Source of the DNA: Haloplanus salinus
GTDB taxonomy: Archaea > Halobacteriota > Halobacteria > Halobacteriales > Haloferacaceae
Direction of reading: 5' to 3'
DNA length: 64,000 nt
Assembly: GCF_003336245.1 (NCBI RefSeq)
Contig: NZ_QPHM01000003.1
Span: 310,001 to 374,000, forward strand
Shown: in pieces, positions 34,593 to 58,046 of the stretch
Position numbering within the stretch: the first letter of the stretch is position 1
Layout of the letters: each line of letters begins with the position of its first letter
Made by a program: the position numbers and the translations under genes
The notes under the pieces: model-generated
Seen by the model: only the letters and a program-made list of their open reading frames with translations
Told to the model about the DNA's origin: nothing
Database searches by the model: none

Positions 34593-35843
34593 ATGGCGAT
34601 TGAGGTCACGCGCACCTACGTTGGTTCCATCCAGAACCACCGGCAGGTCTGCGATGGCCTCGACTCGCTCGGAGACTCCGCCTCCAAGATCTGGAACGTC
34701 GCACGATGGACAACCGACCGCATCTGGGACGCAACCGGCGAAATCCCAGACGAGGGCGTGCTGAAATCGTATATGAAAAACCAAGCGTGCTGGAAAGATT
34801 TGAACGCACAATCCAGTCAGAAAGTCATCGAAGAACTTTCCGACGCTTTCCAGTCATGGTTCGACCTGCGACACAAGGTTGACGAGGCCAATCCACCCGG
34901 CTACCGAAAACGCGGTGACAATCGGCCACGAAGTACGGTTACGTTCAAAGAAGACGGATTCAAACACGACCCTGAGAACAACAGAGTTCGACTTTCGAAA
35001 GGCTCGAACCTCAAAGAATACTGGGCGGACTTCTTGCTCTGTGAGTATCAGACGCGCCCCGAGGTTGAATTCTCGGAGATCGAATCCGTGCAGAACGTTC
35101 GCGCAGTCTGGAACGGTGACGAGTGGGAGCTACACTTCGTCTGCAAAGTCGAACTCGAGCCCACCGACTCCACAGGTGACGGCGTGGCAGGCATCGATCT
35201 CGGCGTCACGAACATCGCCACGATCGCCTTCCCTGACGAGTACGTGCTGTACCCTGGCAACTCTCTCAAGCAGGACAAGCACTATTTCAAACGAGCGGAG
35301 TACGACACAGAGGGCGAGAACAGCCCGTCTGAGAAGTCGATGTGGGCACGTCGGAAACTCGCTGACCGCGAGACGCACTTCTACCACACGCTTACGAACG
35401 CCATCATCACCGAGTGTGTCGAGCGCGGTGTTAGGACGCTTGCGGTGAGTTGGCCTGAAGATATTCGAGATTTGGATCGGGGCAAGACTGGCAACAAGAA
35501 GTTGCACACGTGGGCGTTCGACCGTATCTATCAGTATCTGGCGTACAAGGGCGAGATTCGTGGCATTGAGGTGCTGAAAGAGAACGAGTGGAACACCTCG
35601 AAGACCTGCTCGAAGTGTGGCGACGATGCGAGTTCAAACCGTAAGCACCGTGGGTTGTACATCTGCCCGTCGTGCGGGTTGGTCGGGAACGCGGATTGTA
35701 ATGGGGCAGAGAACATGCGACAGAAGATAACTCCGAGTCCTCATGGAGAGGATAGGAGTAACGGCTGTGTGGCACAGCCATCGGTACACCTGTTCGATTC
35801 AGAGAGTGGGGCGTTCGCCCCGCGAGAACAGGTCGTGTCGTAG
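34593..35843 (+). CDS. tnpB: TnpB with the canonical RuvC-II glutamate missing
   Basis: This 416-residue TnpB opens MAIEVTRTYVGSIQNHRQVC. D202 is present in AGIDLGVTN and D368 in NADCNGAEN, and the zinc ribbon is intact (CSKCGD ... CPSCGL). At the second catalytic position, where other TnpBs read V-x-EDL, this protein reads LAVSWPEDIRDL, so serine (about S286) stands in the glutamate place. It may be a nuclease-dead, TldR-like protein or belong to the TnpB groups that place the glutamate elsewhere; the acidic residues two or three positions later (P-E-D) are candidates. A TATA-like AT stretch lies about 25 bases upstream. A typical right end (GAAGCCCCGCC, TCACGGTGGGGAGGATGTCAC) follows at about 35869-35905. 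Confidence 0.85.
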   Translation: MAIEVTRTYVGSIQNHRQVCDGLDSLGDSASKIWNVARWTTDRIWDATGEIPDEGVLKSYMKNQACWKDLNAQSSQKVIEELSDAFQSWFDLRHKVDEANPPGYRKRGDNRPRSTVTFKEDGFKHDPENNRVRLSKGSNLKEYWADFLLCEYQTRPEVEFSEIESVQNVRAVWNGDEWELHFVCKVELEPTDSTGDGVAGIDLGVTNIATIAFPDEYVLYPGNSLKQDKHYFKRAEYDTEGENSPSEKSMWARRKLADRETHFYHTLTNAIITECVERGVRTLAVSWPEDIRDLDRGKTGNKKLHTWAFDRIYQYLAYKGEIRGIEVLKENEWNTSKTCSKCGDDASSNRKHRGLYICPSCGLVGNADCNGAENMRQKITPSPHGEDRSNGCVAQPSVHLFDSESGAFAPREQVVS

Positions 35844-35865
35844 ACCAGCAAATATCCCACCTGCG

Positions 35866-35905
35866 GTACGGGAAGCCCCGCCGGTCACGGTGGGGAGGAT
35901 GTCAC
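35866..35905 (+). mobile_element. Right end of the 34.6 kb TnpB element
   Basis: GCCCCGCC and GGTGGGG around the core GGTCAC form the end hairpin seen in many haloarchaeal IS1341-type elements, finishing in GGATGTCAC at about 35905. The RNA guide of this TnpB would be expected to include this hairpin. Confidence 0.5.
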
Positions 35906-40774: not shown

Positions 40775-42250
40775 ATTCAGCAAATGCGAGGTGGAGCCCC
40801 GACCTCCACGGACGAGCGAAGCGAGTGAGTAGGCCGGGGAGGAACCCGACACGACACAACCCACGTACACCGGCCGACCGACTCCCGAACCTGCAAGTAC
40901 CGTCGCCCCCTCTCTGAACTATGGACGTGCGTCGAACAGCCGTCGTGAAACTCATCATTTCCGACGAGCCACGCGACGCACTCCACCGAACCAGCGACCA
41001 ATTCCTGTACTGCGCGAACCGAACTAGCGAATATTGCTGGTCCAACACGTCCTACACCGAGTGCAAAACCAACAAGCGAGAAGTACGGGACGCACTCTAC
41101 GCCGAACTCCGAGCGGAGACAGAATTACCAGCACAACTCGTCCAAGCCGCGATTCGTCGCGCCGTTGAAGCCGTTAAAAGCGTTGTCGAACGCTGGAAGA
41201 AGAAACAGCGCGTCTCTCAACCGACGTTCACCGCCGAGACGATGGACTACGACACGCGGAGCGCGACCTTCTACCGTAACAACGTGTCGCTCGCAACCGT
41301 CGAAGGCCGAGTCGAACCCTCGTTCATCCTCCCGGCAGACAGTCCGACGCCCTACGAGCGGTACGTCCTTTCTGAGGACTACGAGTTCCGTGAGAGCACG
41401 CTTCGGTACGACGCGACCACCGACGAGTTCTACCTCCACGTTTCGACTCGGCGAGTAAACGACGAAGACGCAGAGGCTTCTACAGATACCGGGCACTCAG
41501 ACCAAACAGTCCTCGGTATCGACCTTGGCGTCAATTCGTTGGCCGTCTCCTCTACGGGAACGTTCTGGAAAGGAGACGACTATGACCACTGGTGTCGTGA
41601 ATTCGAGAAGCGACGTGGTGAGATGCAAAAGCGCGCCACTCAAGCCGGGCACAACGCCTTGCTTCGACTCGGTAAGCGTGAAGAAGCATGGCGGAAACAA
41701 TACATCCACACCGTCGCTAACGAGCTTGTCTCGGAGGCCATCGACTACGGCTGCGACGTAATCGTGTTCGAGGACTTGACCGATATTCGAGAGCGGCTTC
41801 CGCACGCGACGTGGCACCACATCTGGGCGTTTCGGCGCCTGTTCGAGTACGTCGAGTACAAAGCGCCTGAGCAGGGTGTCTTCGTGGAGCAGGTTGAGCC
41901 GAACTACACGAGTCAACGCTGTTCTCGAATGGATTGTGGGTTCACGCACGAAGACAACCGCGACGGAGAGCACTTCGAGTGCCAGAAGTGCGGGTACGAA
42001 GTGAACGCGGACTACAATGCTGCGAAGAACATCGGTGTGCGGTACGCTCGAAAGCAGATTCATAGACTCCGTTCCTCGCCTACGTCGGAGAGTGGAGACG
42101 CACGAGTAGACGTGCGTTTGAATGGTGGGACGTTGAGCGGCGAGAGTCACCAGCCTATTGCTGGCGACTGATGGCCGGGAGTCCACATCAAAGCCCCACC
42201 CTCAACGAACCGAGGCGCGGTGCGCCGAGGGAGTAGGCTGGGGTAGTTTA
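40775..42250 (+). mobile_element. IS1341-type TnpB element, copy 1 (intact)
   Basis: This copy and the inverted copy at 56461-57937 share ends, which fixes both boundaries: left end ATTCAGCA near 40775, right end GGGGTAGTTTA near 42250, giving about 1476 bases in each case. The right end carries a long hairpin (AGCCCCACCCTCAACGA ... GGGAGTAGGCTGGGGT). The base run before the left end differs between copies (ACTG and TTGA). No TnpA is present. On its right the element abuts a pcna fragment. Confidence 0.75.
40921..42171 (+). CDS. tnpB: TnpB, IS200/IS605-family RNA-guided nuclease (intact)
   Basis: This 416-residue TnpB begins MDVRRTAVVKLIISDEPRDA. All catalytic residues are present: D201 in GIDLGVNSLAV, E284 in VIVFEDLTDIRE and D364 in NADYNAAKN, with the zinc ribbon CSRMDC ... 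CQKCGY. It is the reference copy for two others in the window: 56538 (single-base deletion) and the more distant 19920 (hairpin insertion). It should be a working RNA-guided endonuclease. A guide RNA from the 3' end and right end (about 42080-42250) is expected. Confidence 0.92.
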   Translation: MDVRRTAVVKLIISDEPRDALHRTSDQFLYCANRTSEYCWSNTSYTECKTNKREVRDALYAELRAETELPAQLVQAAIRRAVEAVKSVVERWKKKQRVSQPTFTAETMDYDTRSATFYRNNVSLATVEGRVEPSFILPADSPTPYERYVLSEDYEFRESTLRYDATTDEFYLHVSTRRVNDEDAEASTDTGHSDQTVLGIDLGVNSLAVSSTGTFWKGDDYDHWCREFEKRRGEMQKRATQAGHNALLRLGKREEAWRKQYIHTVANELVSEAIDYGCDVIVFEDLTDIRERLPHATWHHIWAFRRLFEYVEYKAPEQGVFVEQVEPNYTSQRCSRMDCGFTHEDNRDGEHFECQKCGYEVNADYNAAKNIGVRYARKQIHRLRSSPTSESGDARVDVRLNGGTLSGESHQPIAGD

Positions 42251-43179: not shown

Positions 43180-44448
43180 ATGAGACGCACGAATACGTTT
43201 GTGATCGCACCAGACCTCGACGACGAGGAGTGTCTCCGACGGTTGCTGGATGCGTCAGCGAGCTTCTGGAACGAGTTGACGTACGAACGCCGCCAACGGC
43301 TCTTCGCGGGTGATCCCGTCTGGGAGGGGTCGGACTGTGGGGACCGATATAAGAGCCGCCTCGGTGCCGCGACGGTCCAGACGGTACGGCGCGTGAACGA
43401 CGAGGCGTGGCGGTCGTTCTTCGAGCGTCGAAAAGACCACTCGACAAGTCCGCCGGGGTACTGGGGGAATCAGGACGATGGGCGTGATCTCCGGGTCTAT
43501 CTGCGGAACGATACATACACTATCGAGTGGGGGTCTCGTTCTCGGATCGACCTCCTAATCGGCCAGAAATTGAAAGAGGAGTTCGGTCTCGGGTACCGCG
43601 AGCGGCTACGACTGCCGGTTCGCGGGGTTCCACGGTGGAACGGCACGCGGGGACGTCTAGTGATCAACTACGATGAGGTCGCAAAGCAGTACCGGGCGTA
43701 CCAATCAGTCGCCGTTAATCAGTCCGCCCTGGAGACGTCACTGGGTGAAACAGAAGCCGCTGTGGATATTGGCGCGAACAATCTAGTCGCCTGCTCAACG
43801 AGCGGTGGGTCACAGTATCTCTTCGAGGGACGACCGCTCTTTGGCCAGTATCGAGCCATCACAGAGCATATCGCAGCCCTCGCTGGGAAACTTCCTGAAG
43901 GGCGTCGCTCCAGCCGGCGGATCAAACGGCTGTATCGCAAACGCACCCGCCAGCGCAACCACGCTCAGGATGCCCTCGTTCGCACGCTCGTCAAGCGACT
44001 CCACGCCGAAGGCGTGGCGACCGTCTTTGTAGGTGACCTCACGGATATCGTCACGGATCACTGGTGTGTCAAAGTAAATCAAAAGACGCACTCGTTTTGG
44101 GCGCACCGCCGGTTCACCGACCGGCTCTCGTGTGTCAGCGAGGAGTACGGGATCGACGTTCGGGAAGTCTCCGAAGCGTGGACGAGCCAGCGATGCCCGC
44201 GGTGCGGAGTTCGTGAGAACACCGTCCGGGACGGCGACTCGTTTTATTGCCAGCGGTGTCAGTTCCGTGGGCACGCCGACCTCGTCGGTGCTCGAAACAT
44301 CCTCGCCGAACACGCGAGCGGAGCAGTCAGGCCGATGGCCCGGCCCGTGCGGTTCCAGTGGGACAATCATCAGTGGCGTTCGACCACAGACGCCCCGGCA
44401 GAAATCCCAACGAACAGCGCACGAACCTGTGAGTTACCTCTGGAGTAA
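43180..44448 (+). CDS. tnpB: TnpB of the VGDL type (glycine at the RuvC-II position)
   Basis: This 422-residue TnpB opens MRRTNTFVIAPDLDDEECLR. D196 in AVDIGANNL and D367 in GHADLVGARN are present and the zinc ribbon is intact (CPRCGV ... CQRCQF). The usual glutamate is replaced by glycine in TVFVGDLTDIV (about G285). Many haloarchaeal TnpBs have this GDL form and may use a glutamate from elsewhere in the fold. Whether this one cuts DNA is not clear from the sequence. A TATA element (GATTTATCGA, about 43142) lies upstream. The hairpin-rich stretch after the stop (to about 44495) is the probable right end. Confidence 0.85.
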   Translation: MRRTNTFVIAPDLDDEECLRRLLDASASFWNELTYERRQRLFAGDPVWEGSDCGDRYKSRLGAATVQTVRRVNDEAWRSFFERRKDHSTSPPGYWGNQDDGRDLRVYLRNDTYTIEWGSRSRIDLLIGQKLKEEFGLGYRERLRLPVRGVPRWNGTRGRLVINYDEVAKQYRAYQSVAVNQSALETSLGETEAAVDIGANNLVACSTSGGSQYLFEGRPLFGQYRAITEHIAALAGKLPEGRRSSRRIKRLYRKRTRQRNHAQDALVRTLVKRLHAEGVATVFVGDLTDIVTDHWCVKVNQKTHSFWAHRRFTDRLSCVSEEYGIDVREVSEAWTSQRCPRCGVRENTVRDGDSFYCQRCQFRGHADLVGARNILAEHASGAVRPMARPVRFQWDNHQWRSTTDAPAEIPTNSARTCELPLE

Positions 44449-44723: not shown

Positions 44724-45647
44724 ATGCGGCTTGACCCACTCTTTTCCTCAGAGTTGCCTTTCGATACTGACGACACAGTCAAGCGAATCTCGTTCGCCCG
44801 CCTCATTAGAGAGCGGACAGGTTTGATCGACATCACGCTGTTGCTCTCCCTTCCAGCCGTACTGATACTCATTTATTTGTCGCCAGTAGGACTGCGCGAG
44901 TCGCTCGTGTTTGACTACACCGAGCCGACCTTATTCACCGCCTTCGCGTCCGTGTTCATCCATCTCGACAAAATTCATTTGCTTGTTAATATCGGAGTGT
45001 ACGCGCTTATCGTTCCAGTACTATTCGTTCTCAGCATCGCCACCCGAAATCGTCGCCGGTTCTATACGGCTTTTGTGACCTTTCTGTTGATGTTTCCGTT
45101 CGTCCTCTCGTATCTGAATCTCGCTCTCTTCCGGCCGTCAGTAGCGTTCGGCTTCTCAGGAGTAGCGATGGCATTCGTCGGTTATCTGCCGTTCGCACTT
45201 GCCAACTATCTCGACGACGTGTTCGATGTCGGGCCAGCGAACCAGATCTCACCGATGCTCTTTCTGCTCAGTCTCCTCTGTATTGCAGTACTGAGCATTC
45301 GGTCGGCTCCGACTATCGGCCGATTAGTCGTACTCAGCACCGTCGTTTCGGTTCTCGTAGCAATACTGTCCGTACTCCTGTACGTGCTAGCCTTGTACGA
45401 TCAGAAAGACGAACTCCAGTCGAAGCTCCGAACCGTACTTCGGACTTCTGGACACTTCGAATTGGCCATGATTGCCATCGTGCTGATCTTCGCTATCCAG
45501 TTCGTTGCGTTTCCCCCAGATCCAGCCCTTGGAGACGGCGTGTTGAACCTCTACGTCCACTTCCTTGGATACTCGCTCGGATTCCTCGCGGTCTTCACGG
45601 CGGTCGAAACCGCCGAACGACTCGGATGGGCCGAGACGGTGCTGTGA
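44724..45647 (+). CDS. Rhomboid-family intramembrane serine protease
   Basis: This 307-residue multi-span membrane protein matches rhomboid proteases at the key points: FIHLDKIHLLVNIGVYALI (H80, H85, N89), corresponding to the H-x4-H-x3-N signature of the second core helix. The catalytic serine lies in VAFGFSGVAMAFVGY (GxSG, S145) and the catalytic histidine in YVHFLGYSLGFLAV (H279). Hydrophobic segments at about 35-55, 95-107, 115-135, 180-195, 205-225 and 245-260 fit six or more membrane spans, with a longer insert than usual between the serine and the histidine. It would cleave membrane-anchored proteins near the membrane. Its neighbour is a huge surface protein with a C-terminal anchor, a possible substrate. 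Confidence 0.72.
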   Translation: MRLDPLFSSELPFDTDDTVKRISFARLIRERTGLIDITLLLSLPAVLILIYLSPVGLRESLVFDYTEPTLFTAFASVFIHLDKIHLLVNIGVYALIVPVLFVLSIATRNRRRFYTAFVTFLLMFPFVLSYLNLALFRPSVAFGFSGVAMAFVGYLPFALANYLDDVFDVGPANQISPMLFLLSLLCIAVLSIRSAPTIGRLVVLSTVVSVLVAILSVLLYVLALYDQKDELQSKLRTVLRTSGHFELAMIAIVLIFAIQFVAFPPDPALGDGVLNLYVHFLGYSLGFLAVFTAVETAERLGWAETVL

Positions 45648-45706
45648 GGATAACCCCTTACATAGTGAGTGTTGTGAACGGAAATATAGGGCGAGAGAGT
45701 GGCTGG

Positions 45707-48700
45707 TTACAGCATATCTCGCCGTCGCAGGATTGCCACGGCGGCGATGATGCCTCCCAGAAGGACGAGCACGATAACGAGTAGCGGTACACTGAATCCT
45801 CCGGGTTCGGTCGCAGTCGACGTTGGCTGTGGCGATTCGACCGCTTCTGGCGGTTCCGGCGTCTGTGTTTCGTCCGCTGGCGTCGGTTCGGACTCCGGCT
45901 TCGGCGTTCCGTCAGCCGTTACCTGGGCAGGCGTCGACGTGGGCGTCGTCACCTGTGACGGCGACCGCTCGACGACCGCGAACAGCGAGAACGAGTCGAC
46001 GGGCGCGGTCAGCGTGACCGTTCCACCACTCACGTCCTGCACAGTCGTCTCCTGAATCGTCCACCCAGTAGCAGTCCGGTGGACAATAACTGCATTCTCC
46101 GGGTCGTCCAGTTGCTCGGTAGGCACCTCCATTTCGACGGTCGCCGACGTTTGATCCGACGCCAGGGAACCCGGCGAGATATCGACGACTGTCACGAGAT
46201 CTATCTCCGACGCGCTGTCGATGTCCGTCACGTCGCCGGCGATGCGCTCGGTGATCGTCTGGACGGTCGAATCGGATAGGCCATCGAACTCGGAGACCGT
46301 CACCGATCCCAGCGTGTTCTCGTCGAAAGTGACTCGACTGACCGTCTCGGTGTCCTCGAACTCGCCGGTCTGTTCCCCGATATTGGTTTCCTCGACGACC
46401 ACGGGATCGACATCAATGAGCGGGAAGTCGTCGGTAGCTGCGCCACCTCCACCGCCGCCTCCGCCGCCACCACCAGTGCCGCCATCAGCGCCGTCGTCTC
46501 CACCAGCGGTCGCGACCGAAATTGTCACCGTACGGTTCGCCGTCTGGCCCGCCTCGTCAGCGACACGGACTTCGACCGTCCGGTTCTCGCCTGGTTCCAG
46601 ACCGGTGAGTTCGTAGCTCGCGCTACTTGCATTGATTTGCGCCGATCCGGTCACGTCAGTCCCGTCTTCGAGAACCGTCACGGATTCCGGATCGACGCCC
46701 GAGATCGTATCGTTGTAGCTGAACGTGAACGTCGCGTTATCGACGCTCGCGTTGAGGTCGGTCTCAGTCGTCTCCAGAGTCACCGAGGGAGCCGTGTTGT
46801 CGACGAGGACGCCGCGAGTGGTGACGTTTCTGACGCCGCTCTCGCTGGTGGCGACGACACCGAGCGTGTACACGCCGTCGTCGACGGGTTCGCCGTCGAC
46901 AGTCGTATCCCACGAGACCGTCCGCTCGCTCTCGAAGGCACCGGTGACATCCTGCTCGAAGACAACGTCGGTGCCGTTCGAGATCACGACCGTCGCGTTG
47001 TTGGGATCAGGGTGACTCGCCGTTACCGAGACGGTGAGCGGTTGTTCTTCGGTCGCCAGTTGCTCCGCGCCGACGGTTAACTCGGGTGCCGTCAGCGGCG
47101 TCTCGGATGGCGTCGCGTCGACAGTCACTTCGGTCTGTCGGGCCGCCCGCGACGCCGACTCGATGTACGACCGATCCCCAGTGAGCGCGTAGTCGATGAC
47201 TGCGTCGCGGAAGGACGCCGTGCCGGGTTCGAGTCCCGCATTGAGCGCCGCATCGATGGCCTCCCGACGGTCGTCGTCGGGCAGGTCGTTGACGGTCACT
47301 CGCTCGGACGGGTAATCGGCGTCGTAGAACGCCGCCGCGCTCTCGCCGTCGTCGTAGTCGAACAGCGAGTTCTCGGCGGTGACGCGGTAGTCCTCACGGT
47401 ACTGGCCGTACAGCGCCTCGAAGGATGGCGAGGTCGACAGCGCCGTTCCGTCCGCGAGCGCGATGTCGTTGGAGGTGTTGCCGTCCGGACTGCCGAGCAG
47501 GCCGCGCATCGAGTCAACGGCGGTCCGGTTCGGTTTGACGACTACGTCGAGGCGGTTGTCGACGACCGTCACTTCGAGGCGGGAGTCGCCGTCGTCGACT
47601 TTGTTATCTTCGCCGGGGTAGACGACGACGTAGCGGTCCGGGGTTCGGAAGATTTCGCCATCCTCGACTGTGAGGGAGTCGCCCGTTTCGAGCGACCGGG
47701 CGGTCCCGTCAACCGTTAGCGTCTGTTGGTCGCGGGCGTCGATGGTGATTTCGGTGCCGTTGATCTCCGTGGCGACCGCCGAGATAACGCTCACATCGCG
47801 GCCAGCGACAGGTCGGAGACGGGCTTGGACGTGCGGGCTACCGTCCGTGTCGTTCGTGAGGACGAACTCGCCGGCGGCCTGGAAGTCGTAGGCGACGCCG
47901 TCGTAGGTGGTGAGGTGGGGGTCACCAGTAGCGACCCCGGACCTTCCCTCAGTGGACTGAGGTAAACTGCCAGAAGCTTCTTGATAACCTTGTTGAATCA
48001 TTTGAGTGATATCACTGTGCTTTTTCCTAGATATTCGAACAGATGTCCCGTCAAGAATCGTATCTACTATCGGTCGCGCAATTGATCGAATAGATCGGAG
48101 ACCATCTGGTATCGTGACGGCCTTGCTCATGATTGATATGATTTGGGGGTTGTTAGCTGAATTTATTTGCCACACTGGTCCCCCACTAAACCCAGGATAC
48201 ATCAATTCGTTAAGTGGTCCTCCTGTGGCCACTTGATGACACTTCGAACGGTCGATACAATTACCCAATGGAGTTCCTTGGCCATCGGCGCGTAGGTCCC
48301 ACTGCTCACCGGGGCTAGTATATGGAGCGTAATTAGCGGGGTATCCTGTTAGGTGACTATATTTCGTATACTGTGGGCTACTTACCGGATGATCTTGATA
48401 CCCGAACGTGCCAGTCTCGGTTCCAATCGGGTTTTCAAGCGTAATTACTGCTATATCGTGAGTTATTCTTCGTTCTTTCGCCCATTTTTTATAAACATAA
48501 ATGTGTTCGAACTCACTCTCAGTTAGAGCAGTACCTTGGCTTCCATTCCGAGCGGCCTCAAATTTAATACTTAGAGGGGAATATTTCCAGTCATTCCCTG
48601 ACGAATTGTAGATACAGTGGCCCGCAGTAATTATATGGTATTTGTCAATAACTGTTGCTGAACAATATGTGTCCCCCACTATTGTTAACGCACCCACTGC

Positions 48701-51700
48701 ACTCCACGGATACTTATTTGATCCACCAGTATTCTGCTTTCTATAACTAAATCCAGGTAAATCAGTTTGGGATGCTGAAGTATCAGAAGGCAACGACGAA
48801 GATGATAAAAGGTGTGCTGCGGAATCCGAGCTGGTGGTGAAGTTTGTGTAATTCCTGAATTGTGGGTCGTATCCAATGATATTGTGTTCTATCTCAATAT
48901 TTTTCGTCCACCCGCTGTAGTCTGTCTCGGTCCAGTTGTTGTTGAGGTATGTCTCCGTCACCACTTGTATCTGCTTTGTGCCGTTTGTCGACGGATCAAA
49001 TTCATAGTTATACTTTCTGACCCCTCCCGAGGAGATAATCTCCTCTTGATCACCAGGGGTTATATTCTGCTCAACAGAATCGTCTTCATTGGTGTCGACT
49101 TTTATCCGCACGCGAACTGGCCGCTGAGGACCATCGTTCCGTATTTCGGGGCTAATCGTCACCGATCGACCGCCGTAGTATCCACCCTCACCGTTCTCGT
49201 CGCCCTCAAGTTCAACGCTTGACAGCCGCGGGGCAGTTCGTTGGACATTCGTAATCGTGCCGTCAGCATCTACAGTCACCGAACTGCTACCCCAGAACGC
49301 ACCATCGGGACCGTACAGTTCGAGAGTGTACTCCCCGGTTGTGAGCGTCGACCACTGCACCTCGCCGCTCGCATCGGCCTGCTTGCTGTCGAGTCCCGCG
49401 TAGGACGCGTTGTAGAGGATGATTTCGGCGTTCGGCACCGTTACACCACTGGCATTCGTCGCGGTCACCCTCAGACTATTCGTGCCGTTCAGTTCCGGCG
49501 GCTGCTCCGGCGGTTCCGGATCGACCGTCTCCTCGACATCGCCACTAGAATCCTGCTGTTGGGCCGAGGAGAAGTAGCTCTCGTCGCCGGTGAGTGCGTA
49601 GTCGATGATCGCACTCTCGTAGGCGACCGTGCCCGGTTCGAGGCCGGCCTCTTCGGCTAAGGTCTGCGCCTCCGTCAACGTCTCTTGATCGAGATCGTCG
49701 ACCGTGACGACATTCTGCGGTACGAGTGGATCGTAGTACGTTCCCGGTCCGTTGTCTCCCTCGTACGTGAACAGCGTCGTGTCATCGGTGACGCGCCAGT
49801 CGTCTCGGTAAGTGCCGTAGAGTACGTCGGCACTCGGGGACGTGGAGAGGGCTGTCCCGTTCGCCAGCGCGACATCGTTCGAACTGTTACCGTCGAGGTT
49901 TCCAAGCAAGCCCGTCACGGGCTCGGATCGATCCGGATCGAGGCGGACTCTGATGTCGAGTCGGTTGCCGAACATGTCGGCCGTAAGTCGTTCGTCGCTT
50001 GGTCCGACTGCGTTGTCGTCTCCAGGATAGACGACCGCGTACGTACTACCGCTCCGCCGAACACTTCCGTTGCCGACCGAGATGGTTTCGGACTCACCCA
50101 GTTCCGTCGGCGTTCCGTCGACCTGGACAGGTGTCGAATCCCGTGCATCAATGACGACCGTGTGGCCGTCGAGGGTCGTCGCCACAGCGGTGTTGATCGT
50201 AACCGAATTGCTACCGCTAACCGGGACTTGGCGGGCCTGAATCTCGAGCGATCCCTCGGGCTCGCGGACGAGAGTGTATTCGCCCGCGGCCATGAAGTCG
50301 TAGGCTACGTCGTCGAACGTGACGAGATGCGGATCGCCGGTCGAGACGCCGGTTTCGAACGTCGCTCCCACAGCTTCCAGTTGTCGGTCGCTACTGGTGG
50401 AGCCCGTCTGGATCGCGTACGTGTACGTTCCAGATTGAAGTGAAAGGTCGGCGACGAAGCCAACGGTCGTATTTGCACCGGCAGCTAGCGATACGTCCCG
50501 CGAACCCACCTGTTCGAGATTCCCGTCACTGTCGGTATCCACGCGAAACGCGACTGATTCGTTCGTCCTGTTTGAGCCAGGGTTGGCGACCGTCGTAGAC
50601 ACTGAGAACTCTTCCCCAACAGATACTGTACTCGGGCCTCGGACATTTTGTATCGTTAGCTGGTCAATGGGCTCTTCGGGAGTTTGGGAGTCACCGAGAC
50701 GCCGTATAGCGGTCAGGTTTCCATTCTCATCAGGGCCGAATAGTGTTGTTTCGTTAGTCGCCAGTCCCTTGTAGCCTCGATTGGGACCGGTCGTGTTTTC
50801 GAGGCTTCCATCGGTGCTGAATTTATGCAGAGCCTGTGTGTCGGGCGCACCAAGCCAGAGGGAGCCGTTAAAGTACGCAAGCGCCCGCGGGCTTGTCGTT
50901 CCAGTTGGTCCCCGAACGTCGAATTGATTAACCTGCTGTCCAGCCGGCGTGAACTCAACGATCCGGTTGGACGTAATGTCGGTCGCCCAGAGGGACCCAT
51001 CGCCGTACGCAAGCGCGGGCACGTCGTAGCTCGTATCGATTCGAGAACGGACCTCGCCGGTTTCGGGATTAAGTTCGACGATCTCCCCGTCGAAGTTTGA
51101 TCCGACACCATCGGCGAACCACAGAGATCCGTCCCCGTATGCAAGCGCGCTCTGAGCCCCACTTGGGGCAGGAAAGCTATTTATTGTGGTACTATTCTCA
51201 AGAACAATCTTCTGGATTTCGCCTCCAGTGTTAACGTAGGCGAACCCGTCATGAATCGCCAACCCATTCTGTGCTGTGTAGTTTGTCGGAGATGCATCTG
51301 GTTGGTCGGGGTCCGCCGATGGAGGTGACGAACTGTGGTTGATCGTGAGGCTGTTCGGTCCAGAATCACCAGTAAAGATTCCTAGGAACCGATCGCCCAC
51401 CGGATCAGCCTGATTTTTGAAAATTTCAATAGAGTGGGCGTACGTCCCGTTTTTGAGTTTGTTCGAATCTATCGGGATATGATACTGACCGTTATACTGA
51501 CTGGCTTCTTTCGTTAGCACCGTCCCGGTCTCATTGCGAACTTCGTAGGTCACGTACCACGATTCATCGGCACCAAGTGCTCGATTGATCGTAACATCGA
51601 TGTATCCCGTTGTGCTGTTCTGTGCCAACTGGCCCTCGTAGCCGATCCCATGGATAGTCGGCTCGGTCGCATCAAGAACTGTACCTGTATTCGCATTTAC

Positions 51701-52246
51701 CACTTCCACAGTATATTCCTCAAACGTCGGCGACGCGCTGAACATACTCCGATCGCCTTCGACAGAGGCGTTGATTTCTACGGATGATCCATTTGTGAGA
51801 CTTAATTCAAGTGACGGCTCCCTGATTTCGCCATTCCCACGATAAATATCCAATTCAACTGAAGTAGTGTTATGTGTAACACTGTCAACCTCAGGAGCAA
51901 CGGTGACAGATCTACCTGTCTGATTGACAATTCTGAAAACTAATTCGTTCGCGTCGCCTATTCGTAATCCATCGGGACTTGTGTCCTCAATCCGGAGACC
52001 CTCTGCATATTTAGGATCTTCCCCAGCAATATTCGATCCTCTTGCAGTCGCAACCGATTGAGCATATTGGATGTCGGCCTCTACTGTAACAGTCTGTGTC
52101 GGTGTCGGCGTTGAGGTCGGTGTCGTATTACCGGCCTGTGCAATTACAGGACCCGGAACACCGACTGAAGGAACTGAGATGACCATTATACCACACAGTA
52201 CCACAGCTTGGATTTTTTCTCCCAAAGGGACTCCCCGCGGACCCAT
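45707..52246 (-). CDS. Giant surface protein: two vWD domains, trypsin-like protease domain, PGF-type anchor
   Basis: This 2179-residue exported protein has a signal (QAVVLCGIMVISVPSVGVPG, about 12-31). Regions in order: beta-sandwich domains (30-300); a propeller-like stretch with repeated ALAYGDGSLW (about 350-500); a CARDB-like domain (STVSVGEEFSVSTTVANPGS, about 530); vWD domain 1 (GDPHLVTFDDVAYDFMAAGE, about 640-800); a carboxypeptidase-regulatory-like domain (about 920); a trypsin-like domain at about 1190-1400 with ITAGHCIY (about 1208), RITHDIAVITL (about 1264) and MYPGFSGGPVW (about 1354), a full His-Asp-Ser triad; vWD domain 2 (GDPHLTTYDGVAYDFQAAGE, about 1444-1600); Ig-like domains; a poly-Gly hinge (about 1925); a PGF-pre-PGF-like domain; and a final anchor GGFSVPLLVIVLVLLGGIIA with RRR. 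It is an envelope protein with probable proteolytic activity. Confidence 0.88.
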   Translation of the reverse strand: MGPRGVPLGEKIQAVVLCGIMVISVPSVGVPGPVIAQAGNTTPTSTPTPTQTVTVEADIQYAQSVATARGSNIAGEDPKYAEGLRIEDTSPDGLRIGDANELVFRIVNQTGRSVTVAPEVDSVTHNTTSVELDIYRGNGEIREPSLELSLTNGSSVEINASVEGDRSMFSASPTFEEYTVEVVNANTGTVLDATEPTIHGIGYEGQLAQNSTTGYIDVTINRALGADESWYVTYEVRNETGTVLTKEASQYNGQYHIPIDSNKLKNGTYAHSIEIFKNQADPVGDRFLGIFTGDSGPNSLTINHSSSPPSADPDQPDASPTNYTAQNGLAIHDGFAYVNTGGEIQKIVLENSTTINSFPAPSGAQSALAYGDGSLWFADGVGSNFDGEIVELNPETGEVRSRIDTSYDVPALAYGDGSLWATDITSNRIVEFTPAGQQVNQFDVRGPTGTTSPRALAYFNGSLWLGAPDTQALHKFSTDGSLENTTGPNRGYKGLATNETTLFGPDENGNLTAIRRLGDSQTPEEPIDQLTIQNVRGPSTVSVGEEFSVSTTVANPGSNRTNESVAFRVDTDSDGNLEQVGSRDVSLAAGANTTVGFVADLSLQSGTYTYAIQTGSTSSDRQLEAVGATFETGVSTGDPHLVTFDDVAYDFMAAGEYTLVREPEGSLEIQARQVPVSGSNSVTINTAVATTLDGHTVVIDARDSTPVQVDGTPTELGESETISVGNGSVRRSGSTYAVVYPGDDNAVGPSDERLTADMFGNRLDIRVRLDPDRSEPVTGLLGNLDGNSSNDVALANGTALSTSPSADVLYGTYRDDWRVTDDTTLFTYEGDNGPGTYYDPLVPQNVVTVDDLDQETLTEAQTLAEEAGLEPGTVAYESAIIDYALTGDESYFSSAQQQDSSGDVEETVDPEPPEQPPELNGTNSLRVTATNASGVTVPNAEIILYNASYAGLDSKQADASGEVQWSTLTTGEYTLELYGPDGAFWGSSSVTVDADGTITNVQRTAPRLSSVELEGDENGEGGYYGGRSVTISPEIRNDGPQRPVRVRIKVDTNEDDSVEQNITPGDQEEIISSGGVRKYNYEFDPSTNGTKQIQVVTETYLNNNWTETDYSGWTKNIEIEHNIIGYDPQFRNYTNFTTSSDSAAHLLSSSSLPSDTSASQTDLPGFSYRKQNTGGSNKYPWSAVGALTIVGDTYCSATVIDKYHIITAGHCIYNSSGNDWKYSPLSIKFEAARNGSQGTALTESEFEHIYVYKKWAKERRITHDIAVITLENPIGTETGTFGYQDHPVSSPQYTKYSHLTGYPANYAPYTSPGEQWDLRADGQGTPLGNCIDRSKCHQVATGGPLNELMYPGFSGGPVWQINSANNPQIISIMSKAVTIPDGLRSIRSIARPIVDTILDGTSVRISRKKHSDITQMIQQGYQEASGSLPQSTEGRSGVATGDPHLTTYDGVAYDFQAAGEFVLTNDTDGSPHVQARLRPVAGRDVSVISAVATEINGTEITIDARDQQTLTVDGTARSLETGDSLTVEDGEIFRTPDRYVVVYPGEDNKVDDGDSRLEVTVVDNRLDVVVKPNRTAVDSMRGLLGSPDGNTSNDIALADGTALSTSPSFEALYGQYREDYRVTAENSLFDYDDGESAAAFYDADYPSERVTVNDLPDDDRREAIDAALNAGLEPGTASFRDAVIDYALTGDRSYIESASRAARQTEVTVDATPSETPLTAPELTVGAEQLATEEQPLTVSVTASHPDPNNATVVISNGTDVVFEQDVTGAFESERTVSWDTTVDGEPVDDGVYTLGVVATSESGVRNVTTRGVLVDNTAPSVTLETTETDLNASVDNATFTFSYNDTISGVDPESVTVLEDGTDVTGSAQINASSASYELTGLEPGENRTVEVRVADEAGQTANRTVTISVATAGGDDGADGGTGGGGGGGGGGGAATDDFPLIDVDPVVVEETNIGEQTGEFEDTETVSRVTFDENTLGSVTVSEFDGLSDSTVQTITERIAGDVTDIDSASEIDLVTVVDISPGSLASDQTSATVEMEVPTEQLDDPENAVIVHRTATGWTIQETTVQDVSGGTVTLTAPVDSFSLFAVVERSPSQVTTPTSTPAQVTADGTPKPESEPTPADETQTPEPPEAVESPQPTSTATEPGGFSVPLLVIVLVLLGGIIAAVAILRRRDML

Positions 52247-52596
52247 GATGATGTCTTCTAACTAATACCACCAGTTTATTTGTTGGCTCGTTAAACCACT
52301 CCAATCAGTGATTAACTGGGCCGAAAGTGGATCACACCGGAGTATAGGCAGTCATAGTAGACGCGGAGACGTTGACTCACCAAGGGAAAGATAGAGGTCC
52401 CGGAAGAGTGGCTATCTGCTGCAGGTTCTCACAAAGCTGCAACAAGATTCGCATCACGGACCTCACCCAGAGGTGGTTGGCTGGTCAGGCGTTACGCGAA
52501 TTTCTCACAGACAAGGGAGTGAAGCGTTCGAGAGCAGTCGAGTGGCCGTCCCGGCTGGCGCCCGCGGTGCCGAACGCTCTTCACCCAAACCCGAAC
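52247..52596. other. Intergenic region, divergent promoters
   Basis: The stretch next to 52247 is AT-rich (ACTAATACCACCAGTTTATT near 52261) and should hold the promoter of the giant surface protein. The rest has an open plus-strand frame from 52372 joined to the next gene, but its codons do not look like a conserved protein. No other feature is seen. Confidence 0.45.
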
Positions 52597-54093
52597 ATGG
52601 CTACTGACCAGTACACGCAACGACGCGGACGGAGCACCGACTCGACGAACGACGGCACTCCAGCAGCCGACCACGCCCACGTGCCGGCGCTCATCGCCGA
52701 AGAATATACACTCCGGTTCGCCGGACTCGCTGACGGCGATGCGGAGGCAGTTCCCGGAAACGACGAGCATTCACCGGAAGTTTGGTGTGGAGACGACAGT
52801 GTGAATTCACTCGAGCAGGTCATCGAGGTGCTACCACGAGCCAGTTCCGGGGAACTCTGGGCGACCAACGAGCTCGTCGCGACCGATGGCGCCATCGACA
52901 TCACCGCTATCGAGTCGGTTCACGGGCTCGATACGGATGCGCTCGAACGGACGGCCGGACGCTCGCTAGACGAGCTAGCCGCCCGGACCGACGCCGAGCC
53001 GATCGTCCCCGTCGACGATCACCAGGACATCGTCGACCGGCGACGGAAGGCGCTGTGTGCGCTGGGCTACGACGTCCGGTTCCGCTGGCAGATCGCCTCC
53101 GACCGCTACTCGATTATCAATCCGCAAGAAGCCTACCAGCCGATCATCACTGCACTCCGGCGACGGAGTGAAACCGGGGCATTCGGCTGGCTGAGCTACC
53201 GCGATTGGGGCGGGCTGCTCAAGCTGTTCGTCGTCTGTCCCGGCCTCAAGCAGGTCGTCGGCCCGCCTGAGGGGGCGGTCGACATCGACGACGAGGACGA
53301 TATCGATGCCCTCGGGGACCGTCGCGTTGGGGATACCGGGACGGCGGATTCAGACGAGGAGCTGGTCGTGTACGGCGGCTTCGAGACGGGGTACGACTTC
53401 CGGGGAACCCAGACGCTGTGGGCGAAGCCGATTCTGTACTTCCCCAACAGTGAAACGGTCGTTCCGGATACGGGTCAACGCTACACTCGCCGGCACTACG
53501 GACAGGCGACCAACGCCGATCACGAACGGGCGAACGACCGGGTGCCCATCAGCGAGTGGTGGGCGTCAATATACGACGACGTCGAGACGCGACTGGTCGA
53601 TGTCGACGAAACACTCCGGCGGGCCCGGGCGATCACCTACGATTTCGATGTGCTTCCGTTCTCGGCTGCCGACTGCTATCGGTACTGGGGTATCGCCGAC
53701 ACGTACGCTGCTGTTGCGGCTGACAGGGCGACTAGCCTCGCCGATCCCACGTCCCGACCGACGGTGTTCAACCTCCAACTGTCGTTGCTGATTGCGCTCC
53801 TGGAGGAGTACACTGGGTCGTGGGCCTCGAACACCTATCAGGAGTATTTGGAAGTGGCCGGCGAGTTGCTTCGGACCCCGGCGATGATGATCCAACTGGC
53901 CATGCAGGAACACGACCGGCAGGTCGAAGACGCGGCCGAACGGGTCCTCACAGAGGGCCAGCAGACGTTGAGTGACGCCCTCGAGGATATCGTCGATATC
54001 CCGGGCATCGACGTCGACACGGAGGCCGCGCTCTCGGATGGGGAAGCCCAGCGACTCCACGACGAGGTTCAGCAGCAGCTAGACGATATCTGA
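52597..54093 (+). CDS. Conserved plasmid-type protein of unknown function upstream of the AAA ATPase
   Basis: This 498-residue protein starts at ATG 52597 (MATDQYTQRRGRSTDSTNDG). A longer frame to 52372 exists but is not conserved-looking. After a hydrophilic N-terminus a segment (VDRRRKALCALGYDVRFRWQ, then IASDRYSIINPQEAYQPIIT, about 147-186) resembles the DUF932 phage/plasmid proteins, in which similar 'YxIINPxE' blocks occur. The middle is beta-rich with FETGYDFRGTQTLWAKPILY. The C-terminal third is helical (AADCYRYWGIADTYAAVAAD, then SLLIALLEEYTGSWASNTYQ). No catalytic motif is visible. It is the first gene of a cassette followed by a MoxR-like ATPase, a winged-helix protein and a VWA protein, and probably supplies the target-recognition or structural part. 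Function unknown. Confidence 0.6.
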   Translation: MATDQYTQRRGRSTDSTNDGTPAADHAHVPALIAEEYTLRFAGLADGDAEAVPGNDEHSPEVWCGDDSVNSLEQVIEVLPRASSGELWATNELVATDGAIDITAIESVHGLDTDALERTAGRSLDELAARTDAEPIVPVDDHQDIVDRRRKALCALGYDVRFRWQIASDRYSIINPQEAYQPIITALRRRSETGAFGWLSYRDWGGLLKLFVVCPGLKQVVGPPEGAVDIDDEDDIDALGDRRVGDTGTADSDEELVVYGGFETGYDFRGTQTLWAKPILYFPNSETVVPDTGQRYTRRHYGQATNADHERANDRVPISEWWASIYDDVETRLVDVDETLRRARAITYDFDVLPFSAADCYRYWGIADTYAAVAADRATSLADPTSRPTVFNLQLSLLIALLEEYTGSWASNTYQEYLEVAGELLRTPAMMIQLAMQEHDRQVEDAAERVLTEGQQTLSDALEDIVDIPGIDVDTEAALSDGEAQRLHDEVQQQLDDI

Positions 54094-54209
54094 ATTGACC
54101 GACCGTCGACTCGACGCGCACCGATTTCTCGCTTCCAATCGAACGACGGAGACTCCGAGAAAGGCAGTGAGTGCGCTTCGACTCGGAGGCTCCAAAACGC
54201 ACCCGTACC

Positions 54210-55811
54210 ATGTCATCCACAACTAGCGACGACGCGGACAGCCAGCCCGACGAACAGGCCGTCTTGAGCCACCTCGTACGACGACTCCTCCGACGTGAGG
54301 GGGGCCAGGTCCCGCTCAAACGAGTCACCCTTCGAGTGAGCGACTACGTCGATATCGGTGAACAGGCCGCCGCTGACCTCATCGACGAGGGTGCCGACGC
54401 CGGGATCTACACGCTGGAGCGAGGTGCTGGTGGAACGACGACGATCACCGGCGTCACTCCCCACGGTCCCGAACCTGACGTCATCATCGCGGCCTTCGGG
54501 GCCACGGCGGACACGCCCGACTTCACCATCATCAGCGTCGTGACCGAGAGTATCGACGAAGCCCTCCGGGAGGCGGGCTACGAGACGTTCGCGGACCTCG
54601 CTAACGCCGGTGTCGACGACCTCGTCGGGCTGACCGGGACGCTCACCGAAAGTCGGGCGGCAGCCATCCTCCAGGAGGCACCACAGCACGTCCCCGTCGG
54701 GACTCGTCTCGCATCTGCTGCCGCCCAGCGATACGCTCGCAGGCTCGACACCGAGACGGACCGCGGGGTGGCGCGGATAGTCGACCTCGCGACCACCGAT
54801 GTCACCGTGGGCGAACCGGTCTACCGAACAGATGAGCTCGATCCCGACGCTCTCGAGGCGCAGTACGTCAGTGCCGTCGGTCGCAACGCCGACGACCCCG
54901 TGGCGACCGGCCTCCACATTCTCGATGATCCGGACCACCCCGACGTGCCGAAGGCAGCGACTCATCCCGACGCCGGCGACGACGCGCTCCCCGTCGACGA
55001 CGCCGGCCGGGTCATCCCGCCGGCTGTTCCCATCGAACCGCGACTCCAACTCCCGCTCGATGAACTGCTCGCGAAGAAACTCGCCCGAGGGCTGGTCCCC
55101 GTCCGCCTCGTCGGGCCGCGCGGCTCGGGAAAAAACTACTTAGTCAAGTACCTCTGCCACAAGACAAATCGTGGCTACGTCTCCATCGATTGTGACGAGG
55201 CGACCCACACCGAGGATCTGTTCGGTCCGCTCACGCCGACCGAGGACGGACTGATCGTCCCCCGGACCGGACCCGCCAAGCAGGCACTCCTGAACGGGTC
55301 GGTGTTGGTGCTCAACGAGTTTCCCGTGATGCGGGCCGGCGCCGCGATGGCCCTCCATCGCCTGCTCAACGAGGGGAAGTTGCTGGTGAAGGCCCACGGC
55401 GAGCTGGTCGAGCCCCATCCGTCGGCGCGCATCGTGATCACGATGAATCCGCCCACCCGGGAGTACCGCGATTCCGAACCGATGAACTCCGCTACCCGTG
55501 GACGGTTCCGGGCGCTGGAGCAGCCCTACATTCAGGACGTCGAGGTCGAACTCAACACGCTGGACGCCCAGGTCAACAGCGGCACCAGTGTCGTCGACAG
55601 AGGCACTCTCAGGAAGGTCGTCCAGTTCGCCCACCAGACTCGTCAGAACGAGAACTGGCCGACGCTGTCGACGCGGAACCTTGTCATCGTCTGCGAACAC
55701 ATCGAGGACGGCGCCGCGCCGAAGGCCGCGGTGAAGAACGAGGTGTGGGCGGTTGCTGAGCCAAACCAGTATCCCGGAGATACCTACGAGACGCTCGACA
55801 ATTATTTGTGA
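54210..55811 (+). CDS. MoxR-like AAA ATPase with N-terminal winged-helix and HhH regions
   Basis: This 533-residue protein starts at ATG 54210 (MSSTTSDDADSQPDEQAVLS). Residues 10-75 look like a winged helix (LSHLVRRLLRREGGQVPLKR), and 115-145 a helix-hairpin-helix (TFADLANAGVDDLVGLTGTL). The AAA core has Walker A RLVGPRGSGKN (about 302-309), a Walker B-like strand VLVLNEFPVMRAGAAM (about 366-380) with LNEF in place of the common DE, and sensor 1 ARIVITMNPP (about 405-415). The C-terminal helices follow (TLRKVVQFAHQTRQNENWPT). MoxR-type ATPases work with VWA proteins as chaperone-like machines. The VWA gene lies downstream at 58047. The asparagine in Walker B may weaken ATP hydrolysis. Confidence 0.8.
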   Translation: MSSTTSDDADSQPDEQAVLSHLVRRLLRREGGQVPLKRVTLRVSDYVDIGEQAAADLIDEGADAGIYTLERGAGGTTTITGVTPHGPEPDVIIAAFGATADTPDFTIISVVTESIDEALREAGYETFADLANAGVDDLVGLTGTLTESRAAAILQEAPQHVPVGTRLASAAAQRYARRLDTETDRGVARIVDLATTDVTVGEPVYRTDELDPDALEAQYVSAVGRNADDPVATGLHILDDPDHPDVPKAATHPDAGDDALPVDDAGRVIPPAVPIEPRLQLPLDELLAKKLARGLVPVRLVGPRGSGKNYLVKYLCHKTNRGYVSIDCDEATHTEDLFGPLTPTEDGLIVPRTGPAKQALLNGSVLVLNEFPVMRAGAAMALHRLLNEGKLLVKAHGELVEPHPSARIVITMNPPTREYRDSEPMNSATRGRFRALEQPYIQDVEVELNTLDAQVNSGTSVVDRGTLRKVVQFAHQTRQNENWPTLSTRNLVIVCEHIEDGAAPKAAVKNEVWAVAEPNQYPGDTYETLDNYL

Positions 55812-55910
55812 CACCCCACGACCGCTCAGGTCTGTCGTTGCTGACTGATGGATGCGACATAATCAGTATAGGTGAGAAACTATTAGTTTGAGGGTCGCGA
55901 AGGACGGTTC

Positions 55911-56462
55911 ATGAGTGAAAAACAACCTGCCTGGCCAGCGGGGATGGACGCCGCCGAGCGCGTCCGACACGTCGCGCTCACCCGGACGATGGCGCGGAAT
56001 GCCGGGTGGATCGCGACTGAAGCAGACGTCTCCCGCGATACGGCCGTGAAGTACCTCTCGCGGATGGCCGAGCAGGGAGATCTCGAGGTCGTCGAGACGG
56101 CGGAGGGAACCTGCTACAAACCAGATCCCGTCACCCAGTTCCTCGACGAGGTCCGCGATCTCGCAGAAACACACTCGCAGGAGGAACTCACCGCGGAACT
56201 CCGAGACATCGCTGACGAGATCGACCGCTGGAAGCGCGAGTTCGACGTGGAGTCGCTTGCCGAACTCCGCCAGTCAGTCGGCGACGACGACCTCTCGGCC
56301 GAACAGCGCCGCGAGCGCCTCGACATCGTCGAAGAGTGGGAGTACGATGTCGAGATGCGCGAGGCGATCCGGCTGGCCATCGGGCTCAAGGACTCGCTCA
56401 CCGAACTCGGCGCGGGGACGGACCAGGGATACACCCCAGACAGCCAACCCCAGGAAGGGTAA
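55911..56462 (+). CDS. Winged-helix protein of the DUF7342 type
   Basis: This 183-residue protein begins MSEKQPAWPAGMDAAERVRH. Residues 25-72 form a winged helix (ARNAGWIATEADVSRDTAVK, then YLSRMAEQGDLEVVETAEGT), and the rest is helical (VTQFLDEVRDLAETHSQEEL, then DIVEEWEYDVEMREAIRLAI). This matches the haloarchaeal DUF7342 transcription-regulator-like family. Its TAA stop (56460-56462) is supplied by the end of the inserted TnpB element, so the original C-terminus may have been different by a few residues. It lies in the AAA/VWA cassette and could regulate it. Confidence 0.8.
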   Translation: MSEKQPAWPAGMDAAERVRHVALTRTMARNAGWIATEADVSRDTAVKYLSRMAEQGDLEVVETAEGTCYKPDPVTQFLDEVRDLAETHSQEELTAELRDIADEIDRWKREFDVESLAELRQSVGDDDLSAEQRRERLDIVEEWEYDVEMREAIRLAIGLKDSLTELGAGTDQGYTPDSQPQEG

Positions 56463-57937
56463 ACTACCCCACCCTACTCCCTCGGCGCACCGCGCCTCGG
56501 TCGTTGAGGGTGGGGCTTTGATGTGGACTCCCAGCGATTAGTCGCCAGCAACAGGCTGGTGACTCCCGCCGTTCAACGTCCCACCATTCACACGCAGGTC
56601 TACTTCTGCGTCTCCGCTCCCCGACGTGGGCGAGGAACGGAGTCTGTGTATCCGTTTTCGAACGTATCGTAGCCCGATGTTCTTCGCGGCGTTGTAGTCA
56701 GCGTTCACTTCGTATCCGCAGTTCTGGCAATAGAAGCGTTCTCCATGGCGGTTATCCTCATGTGTAAACCCACAGTCCATCCGCGAACAGCGTTGAGACG
56801 TGTGGTTCGGCTCGACTTGTTTCACGGAGACGCCCTGTTCGGGCGCTTTGTACGAGACGTACTCGAACAGGCATCGGAACGCCCATACATGGTGCCACGT
56901 CGCGTGCGGAAGCCGCTCTCGTATGTCGGTCAAGTCCTCGAACGCGATTACGTCGCAGTCGTGTTCGGCGGCTTCCGCCACGAGTTCGTTAGCGACGGTG
57001 TGGATGTACTGTTTCCGCCACGCTTCTTCACGCTTCCCGAGGCGGAGTAGAGCGTTGTGGGCGGCCTGCGTGCCGCGCTGTTGCATCTCACCGCGTCGCT
57101 TCTCGAACTCACGGCACCAATGGTCGTAGTCGTCTCCCTGCCAAAACGTGCCGGTTGAGGAGACGGCGAGCGAGTTGACGCCGAGGTCGATACCGAGGGC
57201 CGTTTGGTCAGGGTGCCCGGTATCTGCCGGAACCTCTGCGTCGTCGTTCGTCCGCCGCGTCGAGATGTTGAAATAAAACTCGTCGGTTGTCGCGTCGTAC
57301 CGTAGTGTACTCTCGCGGAACTCGTAGTCCTCGGAGAGAACGTACCGTTCGTAGGGCGTCGGGCTGTCTGCCGGAAGGATGAACGACGGTTCGACCCGGC
57401 CCTCAACAGTCGCCAGCGACACCTTGTTACGGTAGAAGGTCGCGCTCCGCGTGTCGTAGTCCATCGTCTCGGCGGTGAACGTCGGTTGAGAGACGCGCTG
57501 TTTCTTCTTCCAGCGTTCGACAACGCTTTTACGGCTTCAACGGCGCGTTTGATGGCGGCTTGGACGAGTTGTGCCTGTAGCTCCGTCTCCTCTCGAAGTT
57601 TGGAGTAGAGTGCGTCACGAACCTGCCGTTTATTGGTCTTACACTCGGTGTAGGAGGTGTCCGACCAACAGTAGTCGGCGGTTCGGTTCGCGCAGTACAG
57701 GTATTGCTCGGCGGTTTGGTGGAGTGCGTCGCGTTGATCGTCGGAAACGGCGAGTTTCACGACGGCGGTTCGACGCACGTCCATACGTCAGAGAGGGTCT
57801 GACGATACGTATACGTTCGGGAGTCGGCGGGTTGCAGTATGCCGGTTGTGTCGTACTATGTCGGGTTCCTCCCCGGCCCACTCGCTCCCCTTGGTCGCTC
57901 CTTGAGGCCGGAGGCTCCACCTCGAAAATGCTGAATT
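56461..57937 (-). mobile_element. IS1341-type TnpB element, copy 2 (inverted)
   Basis: This is the same element as at 40775-42250, in the opposite direction and of the same length (about 1477 bases). The right end lies at 56461 (TAAACTACCCC) and the left end at about 57937 (GCTGAAT). It interrupts the AAA/VWA cassette between the DUF7342 and VWA genes. Its left end lies 6 bases from an inverted-repeat copy. Confidence 0.75.
56538..57784 (-). pseudogene. tnpB: TnpB with a single-base frameshift
   Basis: This is nearly the same TnpB as at 40921. The first 86 codons (MDVRRTAVVKLAVSDDQRDA ...) run from 57784 to a point near 57530, where one base is missing (GCCGTAAAAGCG here, GCCGTTAAAAGCG in the intact copy). 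The remaining frame (MDYDTRSATFYRNKVSLATV ... to the end) is otherwise full, with the RuvC residues in GIDLGVNSLAV, VIAFEDLTDIRE and NADYNAAKN and the zinc ribbon CSRMDC ... CQNCGY. No full-length protein can be made without frameshifting. The element may still move if TnpA is supplied. Confidence 0.85.
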
Positions 57938-57942
57938 CAATA

Positions 57943-57984
57943 GTTACCACACACCAGCAACATCTTCGAGGATCGTGGGGTAAC
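57943..57984. repeat. Dispersed inverted repeat, copy c
   Basis: GTTACCACAC (57943-57952, one mismatch to the consensus) and GTGGGGTAAC (57975-57984) with a 22-base centre. It lies about 60 bases upstream of the VWA gene and immediately beside the left end of the TnpB element. Confidence 0.7.
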
Positions 57985-58046
57985 TAAGCTCGCGGATTTA
58001 GCGCTTGCAAGGGAGCGGAGAGGTCCGATGCCTCTCGTTCCTCATC

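Follow-up and report, generated by a model that had tools for sequence, protein, structure and literature searches.

The window analyzed here, a stretch of 64,000 nucleotides from the genome of Haloplanus salinus, includes a gene for a divergent rhomboid-family intramembrane serine protease of 307 amino acids (44724..45647, plus strand) and, next to it, a gene for a giant surface protein of 2179 amino acids (45707..52246, minus strand, as are all features of this protein given below). Both ORFs were confirmed at these positions, the rhomboid being assigned by the conserved GxSG motif and histidine and the giant protein by its domain matches. The two genes are convergent, with ~60 bp separating the stop codons, an orientation that excludes an operon and rules out co-transcription.

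The same window contains four IS605 OrfB/TnpB-type genes (34593-35843, 40921-42171, 43180-44448 and 62045-63286), one of which adjoins the rhomboid gene; the Rfam RNA sot0042 (35725-35896), possibly a guide-type RNA, overlaps the 3' end of the first of them. A tRNA-Arg called by ARAGORN (45815-45907, plus strand), antisense to the C-terminal linker of the giant protein, has no Rfam tRNA match and is therefore probably spurious. The region 52372-60662, with an AAA_5 (MoxR/GvpN-like) ATPase (54171-55811) and an 885-amino-acid VWA protein (58005-60662) adjoining a 573-amino-acid protein, looks like a module of the MoxR-VWA type.

Domains of the giant protein and their phyletic distribution

The core of the giant protein consists of two VWD domains with a protease between them. 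The VWD profile (PF00094) matched twice, with a whole-protein score of 116.7 bits (Pfam cut-off 22.9), and the Trypsin profile (PF00089) matched residues 1178-1286, between the two VWDs, with 33.9 bits (Pfam cut-off 20.6). The first VWD, detected by profile, and its cysteine-free, C8-like helical domain, the fold of which is assigned by homology with the second VWD, occupy residues 633-895 (49562..50350); the second unit of the same composition spans residues 1434-1700 (47147..47947). Each VWD contains a GDPH motif, at residues 637-640 (50327..50338), a candidate Asp-Pro self-cleavage site, and at residues 1441-1444 (47915..47926). The trypsin-fold protease domain (about residues 1165-1425, 47972..48754) contains the catalytic triad of His1210 (48617..48619), Asp1264 (48455..48457) and Ser1354 (48185..48187), each invariant in the alignment of the core relatives, which together with the profile match assigns it to peptidase family S1; with these residues intact, the domain is predicted to be an active protease. 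Thus, the preliminary description was correct in recognizing two VWD domains that flank a complete trypsin-like protease. Outside the signal region, the giant protein has four cysteines, all of them in the protease domain.

Several Ig-like domains accompany this core. Following a probable signal peptide (about residues 1-37, 52136..52246), as judged from the hydrophobic N-terminus, the protein contains a weakly supported Vgb-type beta-propeller-like segment (340-484, 50795..51229; 24.3 bits, under the cut-off of 50), a CARDB-like domain (530-614, 50405..50659; 22.0 bits, cut-off 22.7), a CarboxypepD_reg/CNA-B-like Ig domain (925-997, 49256..49474; 20.4 bits, under the cut-off), a FlgD-type Ig-like domain (1731-1802, 46841..47056; 19.2 bits, under the cut-off) and a PGF-pre-PGF-like domain (1994-2092, 45971..46267; 14.0 bits, under the cut-off of 28) that scores 20-44 bits in related proteins adjoining other rhomboids.

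The AF2 model of residues 1135-1700 is of high confidence for the second VWD and the helical domain that follows it (pLDDT mostly over 90); the protease part, for which two homologs were usable, has pLDDT under 50. The predicted VWD2-C8 unit matches MUC5AC (Z 22.8, 228 residues aligned, rmsd 2.5) and FCGBP D10 (Z 19.8), and because these matches cover the VWD jointly with the helical part, the latter is identified as a cysteine-free C8-like domain. Self-cleavage of FCGBP depends on the Asp and His of GDPH, both essential, and is helped by a Gln 14 residues past the Asp (PMC10880436). The Asp and His are intact in both VWDs of the giant protein, so that self-cleavage is expected and, judging from the sequence, probably occurs in both domains, including at high salt; the residue at position +14 is Met652 in the first VWD and, in the second, Gln1456, which corresponds to FCGBP Q4094. 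There are no cysteines in either VWD sequence and hence no strand-retaining disulfide, which is present in FCGBP and missing in some cleaved VWDs; cleavage at GDPH without the disulfide could fragment the protein (PMC10880436). The motif is not kept everywhere: in a VWD protein from another genome of the same genus (G213; L165:5553-9317, minus strand), GDPH is changed to GHGH, a naturally occurring loss of the motif for self-cleavage. The cysteine-free GDPH-containing VWD-C8 units offer a simple system to study Asp-Pro self-cleavage when no disulfide joins the pieces.

VWD domains are present in only 4 of the 146 genomes of the order. The VWD-C8-Ig-protease-VWD-C8 core is conserved at 64% identity in Halorubrum aquaticum (G021) and at 53% in G137, that is, in two other genera, and therefore the architecture is not a product of chance. 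The VWD-protease-VWD arrangement was seen in just these three haloarchaeal genomes, and among the 170 genomes of the family, the full core was found in H. salinus and H. aquaticum only, other members having two VWDs without the protease (G274), a VWD alone (G213 and G292) or the protease without a VWD (G216). A scan of ~85,000 species yielded 79 loci with a VWD-C8-like unit, mostly bacterial, and the protease lies between two VWDs solely in the one from H. aquaticum, in agreement with the earlier remark that such a combination is unusual in an archaeon. The GDPH motif is retained in most of the 79 loci, a frequency biased upwards because GDPH was itself part of one of the two search patterns. 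A homolog of the protease domain is encoded in the genus of H. salinus as a separate protein of 683 amino acids that also has CARDB and CarboxypepD_reg matches and ends in a dockerin-like segment (L166:6748-8799, plus strand). Scans of viral contigs detected no relatives of the rhomboid or of the protease, and among the papers searched, we found none linking the VWD domain with haloarchaea.

The rhomboid family and the C-terminal tails of its neighbors

The catalytic pair of the rhomboid proposed in the preliminary description, Ser145 in the motif GFSG (45156..45158, plus strand) and His279 (45558..45560, plus strand), is conserved in 53/53 and 52/53 family members, respectively. Otherwise, the protein stays under the cut-offs of the known models: it scores 17.9 bits with PF01694 (cut-off 22.6) and 15.1 bits with the rhombosortase model TIGR03902 (cut-off 84), which is the nearest named model for the entire family (12-16 bits). 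A PDB profile search with the rhomboid alignment gave no match, and the single-sequence AF2 model has a pLDDT of 49. This rhomboid family is common: a relative is encoded by 60 of the 142 genomes surveyed in the order and by 91 of the 170 surveyed in the Haloferacaceae; H. salinus itself encodes a second member (C1:589450-590319), 47% identical, located among housekeeping genes without an anchored neighbor.

The giant protein ends in a tripartite tail (2147-2179, 45710..45808; C-terminal sequence TEPGGFSVPLLVIVLVLLGGIIAAVAILRRRDML) that consists of the motif EPGGF, a transmembrane helix and RRR. Of the four occurrences of the pentapeptide EPGGF in the 3.55-Mb genome, this is the sole one that belongs to an anchored C-terminus. 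With a fixed rule that asks for EPx[GA], a transmembrane segment and a basic end on a neighbor within 300 bp of the rhomboid, a matching neighbor exists for 26 of the 52 ORFs of this family vs none of 26 canonical rhomboids, and such a tail is absent from all 1001 ORFs in a 400-kb sample of other haloarchaeal DNA. About half of the 26 loci were among those from which the motif was derived, and many represent orthologous clusters; the counts are therefore not independent. Of 20 loci selected solely on rhomboid identity and genome, blind to context (L169-L188), 10 passed. A looser rule for anchored neighbors, based on linker composition, was dropped because it proved too strict on alanine-rich linkers (15/52, controls 0). 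A profile built from 13 EP-x-G tails and searched against 142 genomes produced 21 matches at E<1e-7, of which 17 are no more than about 1 kb from a family rhomboid and the other four are further copies of CARDB/DUF1102 genes, encoded in trans in rhomboid-bearing genomes. What stands up is an association of these rhomboids, as a family, with surface proteins of various kinds that share a C-terminal tail of the EP-x-G type.

The bodies that carry the tail include CARDB and DUF1102 proteins, a beta-helix giant, a cohesin-like protein of 297 amino acids and the VWD-protease. The most common setting, found in 20 of the 27 first-round loci, is a conserved cluster of small DUF1102 secreted proteins, a CARDB protein, the rhomboid, an S26 signal peptidase, DUF5305 and DUF7344 (such loci include L043, L045-L047, L128-L144 and others), in which the C-terminus of the CARDB protein, encoded immediately upstream of the rhomboid, consists of E-E-P-[GSA]-G-[FI], a helix containing a conserved Gly, and RR. 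This cluster resembles a fiber or biofilm-matrix operon. The DUF1102 proteins are putatively TasA-like, in view of the DUF1102 clan; among the papers searched, none joined DUF1102, TasA and archaea. A convergent rhomboid with an unrelated protein that ends in an EPGGF or EPFGF tail recurs in G104 (31 bp apart; a 2935-amino-acid beta-helix protein ending in EPGGFD), G213 (11 bp; the 297-amino-acid protein, ending in EPGGFE) and G288 (35 bp; tail EPFGFP), in addition to the window (60 bp). In the tree of 53 rhomboids, the window protein belongs to a subclade of about ten, where only two members, on separate branches, have an EPGGF neighbor (the window and G213), the rest being in CARDB/DUF5305 clusters or alone. 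The VWD protein of G213, encoded far from the rhomboid, has the tail SEPAGVAP-TM-RRR and is a possible trans target of the enzyme. Among 50 EP[GASWC]GF sites checked in genomes where the rhomboid is an orphan, none proved to be an anchored tail encoded in trans.

Alternative explanations of the gene neighborhood

The foremost alternative is that the tail of the giant protein is a variant PGF-CTERM signal for archaeosortase A and that the rhomboid is a chance neighbor. H. salinus has two archaeosortase A genes (C3:198924-199790, on the contig of the window, and C1:2581175-2582041) and 12 PGF-CTERM proteins above the cut-off; PGF-pre-PGF-like domains are found near both kinds of tails, and the relative of the giant protein in G137 has a true PGFG tail. 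Against this stand the motif itself, which is PGGF rather than PGF, the lack of a match of the PGF_CTERM model (TIGR04126) to the tail even at E<=1 in its own genome, as well as in the tail scan, and the clustering of EP-x-G tails at family rhomboids as opposed to canonical rhomboids or random genes. Accordingly, membership of the tail in PGF-CTERM was rejected, and the ‘PGF-like' anchor of the preliminary description gives way to EPGGF-TM-RRR. With the profile of rhomboid neighbors, the tail scores 15.3 bits vs 9.6, 2.2 and 0.8 for PGFG tails; it misses E 0.1 in the genome-wide search, and the tail of another convergent case scores higher, at 19.0 bits. On balance, we consider the archaeosortase explanation unlikely, with perhaps a chance in four of being correct.

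Somewhat less probable still is that the rhomboid is a general sheddase or quality-control protease of surface proteins without motif specificity, its neighborhood resulting from co-transfer of envelope genes. Such a role would fit the several neighbor tails that lack EP-x-G (PGFG in L146, QGDFP in L291 and EQFGFP in L185) and the report that Haloferax rhomboids affect many surface traits, with no confirmed substrates (PMC11985538), but is at odds with the strong conservation of the E-P-x-G motif and of the in-helix Gly among the rhomboid neighbors and with the four trans-encoded proteins that bear the same tail in rhomboid-bearing genomes.

The notion of a rhomboid specialized for VWD/serine-protease surface proteins, to which the adjacency in this window gave rise, is highly improbable and was rejected: the co-occurrence check showed a common family with no VWD gene beside the rhomboid in any other family locus examined, and the rhomboid lies far from the VWD or protease gene, or on another contig, in G021, G137, G114, G213, G216 and G274. 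The preliminary description, which cast the rhomboid as a partner of such proteins, had itself named a rhomboid found mostly without them as grounds for refutation, and by that standard the link fails.

Possible processing of the giant protein and similarity to known systems

The evidence on the tails suggests a dedicated pair of rhomboid and tail, enzyme and substrate, at the haloarchaeal cell surface, which would process a surface protease with probable self-cutting at GDPH; we rate the chances of this reading as even. Points against it are the scarcity of EPGGF neighbors in the subclade of the window rhomboid, the failure of the tail to reach E 0.1 in the genome-wide search, and the differing C-termini of the two other VWD-protease-VWD proteins, PGFG in G137 and without a motif in H. 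aquaticum. Under this scenario, the giant protein would be exported and anchored in the membrane through its C-terminal helix, and the adjacent rhomboid would recognize the tail (E-P-G-G-F, helix, RRR) and cut within or beside the helix, so that the protein would be either released or handed to a lipid, as in the rhombosortase/GlyGly-CTERM system. Independently, both VWDs would probably self-cut at the Asp-Pro of GDPH, yielding three chains that, the VWDs being cysteine-free, would have no connection other than the first beta-strand of each VWD; the trypsin-like protease of the middle chain, tethered non-covalently, could therefore be shed. The preliminary suggestion that the adjacent rhomboid may process the anchored protein is thus a good hypothesis, in which cleavage at the tail, the proposed substrate site, and the fate of the new C-terminus are inferred.

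In more general terms, and with equal weight for and against, haloarchaea might possess a previously undescribed rhomboid-based system of C-terminal sorting, in which a non-canonical rhomboid subfamily would recognize E-P-x-G-[F/I], the usual target would be the CARDB protein of a TasA-like/DUF1102 cluster that also encodes a signal peptidase, and certain genomes would have as the target a single giant adhesin or a surface protease, here placed between two self-cleaving, cysteine-free VWD-C8 units of the mucin type. The natural substrates of archaeal rhomboids have not been established, and a 2025 Haloferax study sets finding them as future work (PMC11985538). The genome-wide pairing of tail and enzyme gives direct, testable predictions of rhomboid substrates and would bring archaea, besides bacteria, into the range of rhomboid-based protein sorting.

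Among the known systems, the proposed one is similar to rhombosortase/GlyGly-CTERM (Vibrio cholerae RssP-VesB; Haft and Varghese 2011) in combining a rhomboid-type protease with a tripartite C-terminal tail, in having, as a possible substrate, a trypsin-like serine protease that includes an Ig-fold domain, and in the adjacency of enzyme and target in one-target genomes (PMC3237569), such a target being present beside the window rhomboid. It differs in that the motif is E-P-x-G-F/I instead of a Gly/Ser-rich GG, and in that the haloarchaeal case is archaeal, without type II secretion or an outer membrane; given the weak scores of the family, that of the window rhomboid included, with the rhombosortase model, the system resembles rhombosortase in its working without being a member. 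With archaeosortase A/PGF-CTERM, it shares a haloarchaeal tripartite C-terminal anchor, often located after PGF-pre-PGF-like domains, but the enzyme of that system is unrelated to rhomboids and its tail model misses the giant protein. The VWD-C8 assemblies of FCGBP and gel-forming mucins have the same VWD and C8 fold and the GDPH residues needed for Asp-Pro cleavage, whereas in the giant protein, both domains are cysteine-free, with no disulfide on the first strand, and a protease is inserted between the two units. Bacterial VWD surface proteins (Roseovarius, Azospirillum, Nitrosomonas and Micromonospora) contain a VWD-C8-like unit with GDPH that is about 30-50% identical, but no protease between VWDs in those inspected, and many have RTX-type repeats. 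Finally, the nearest solved relative of the protease domain, Bacillus glutamyl endopeptidase (1p3c), is a free secreted enzyme, in contrast to the internal domain of the giant protein.
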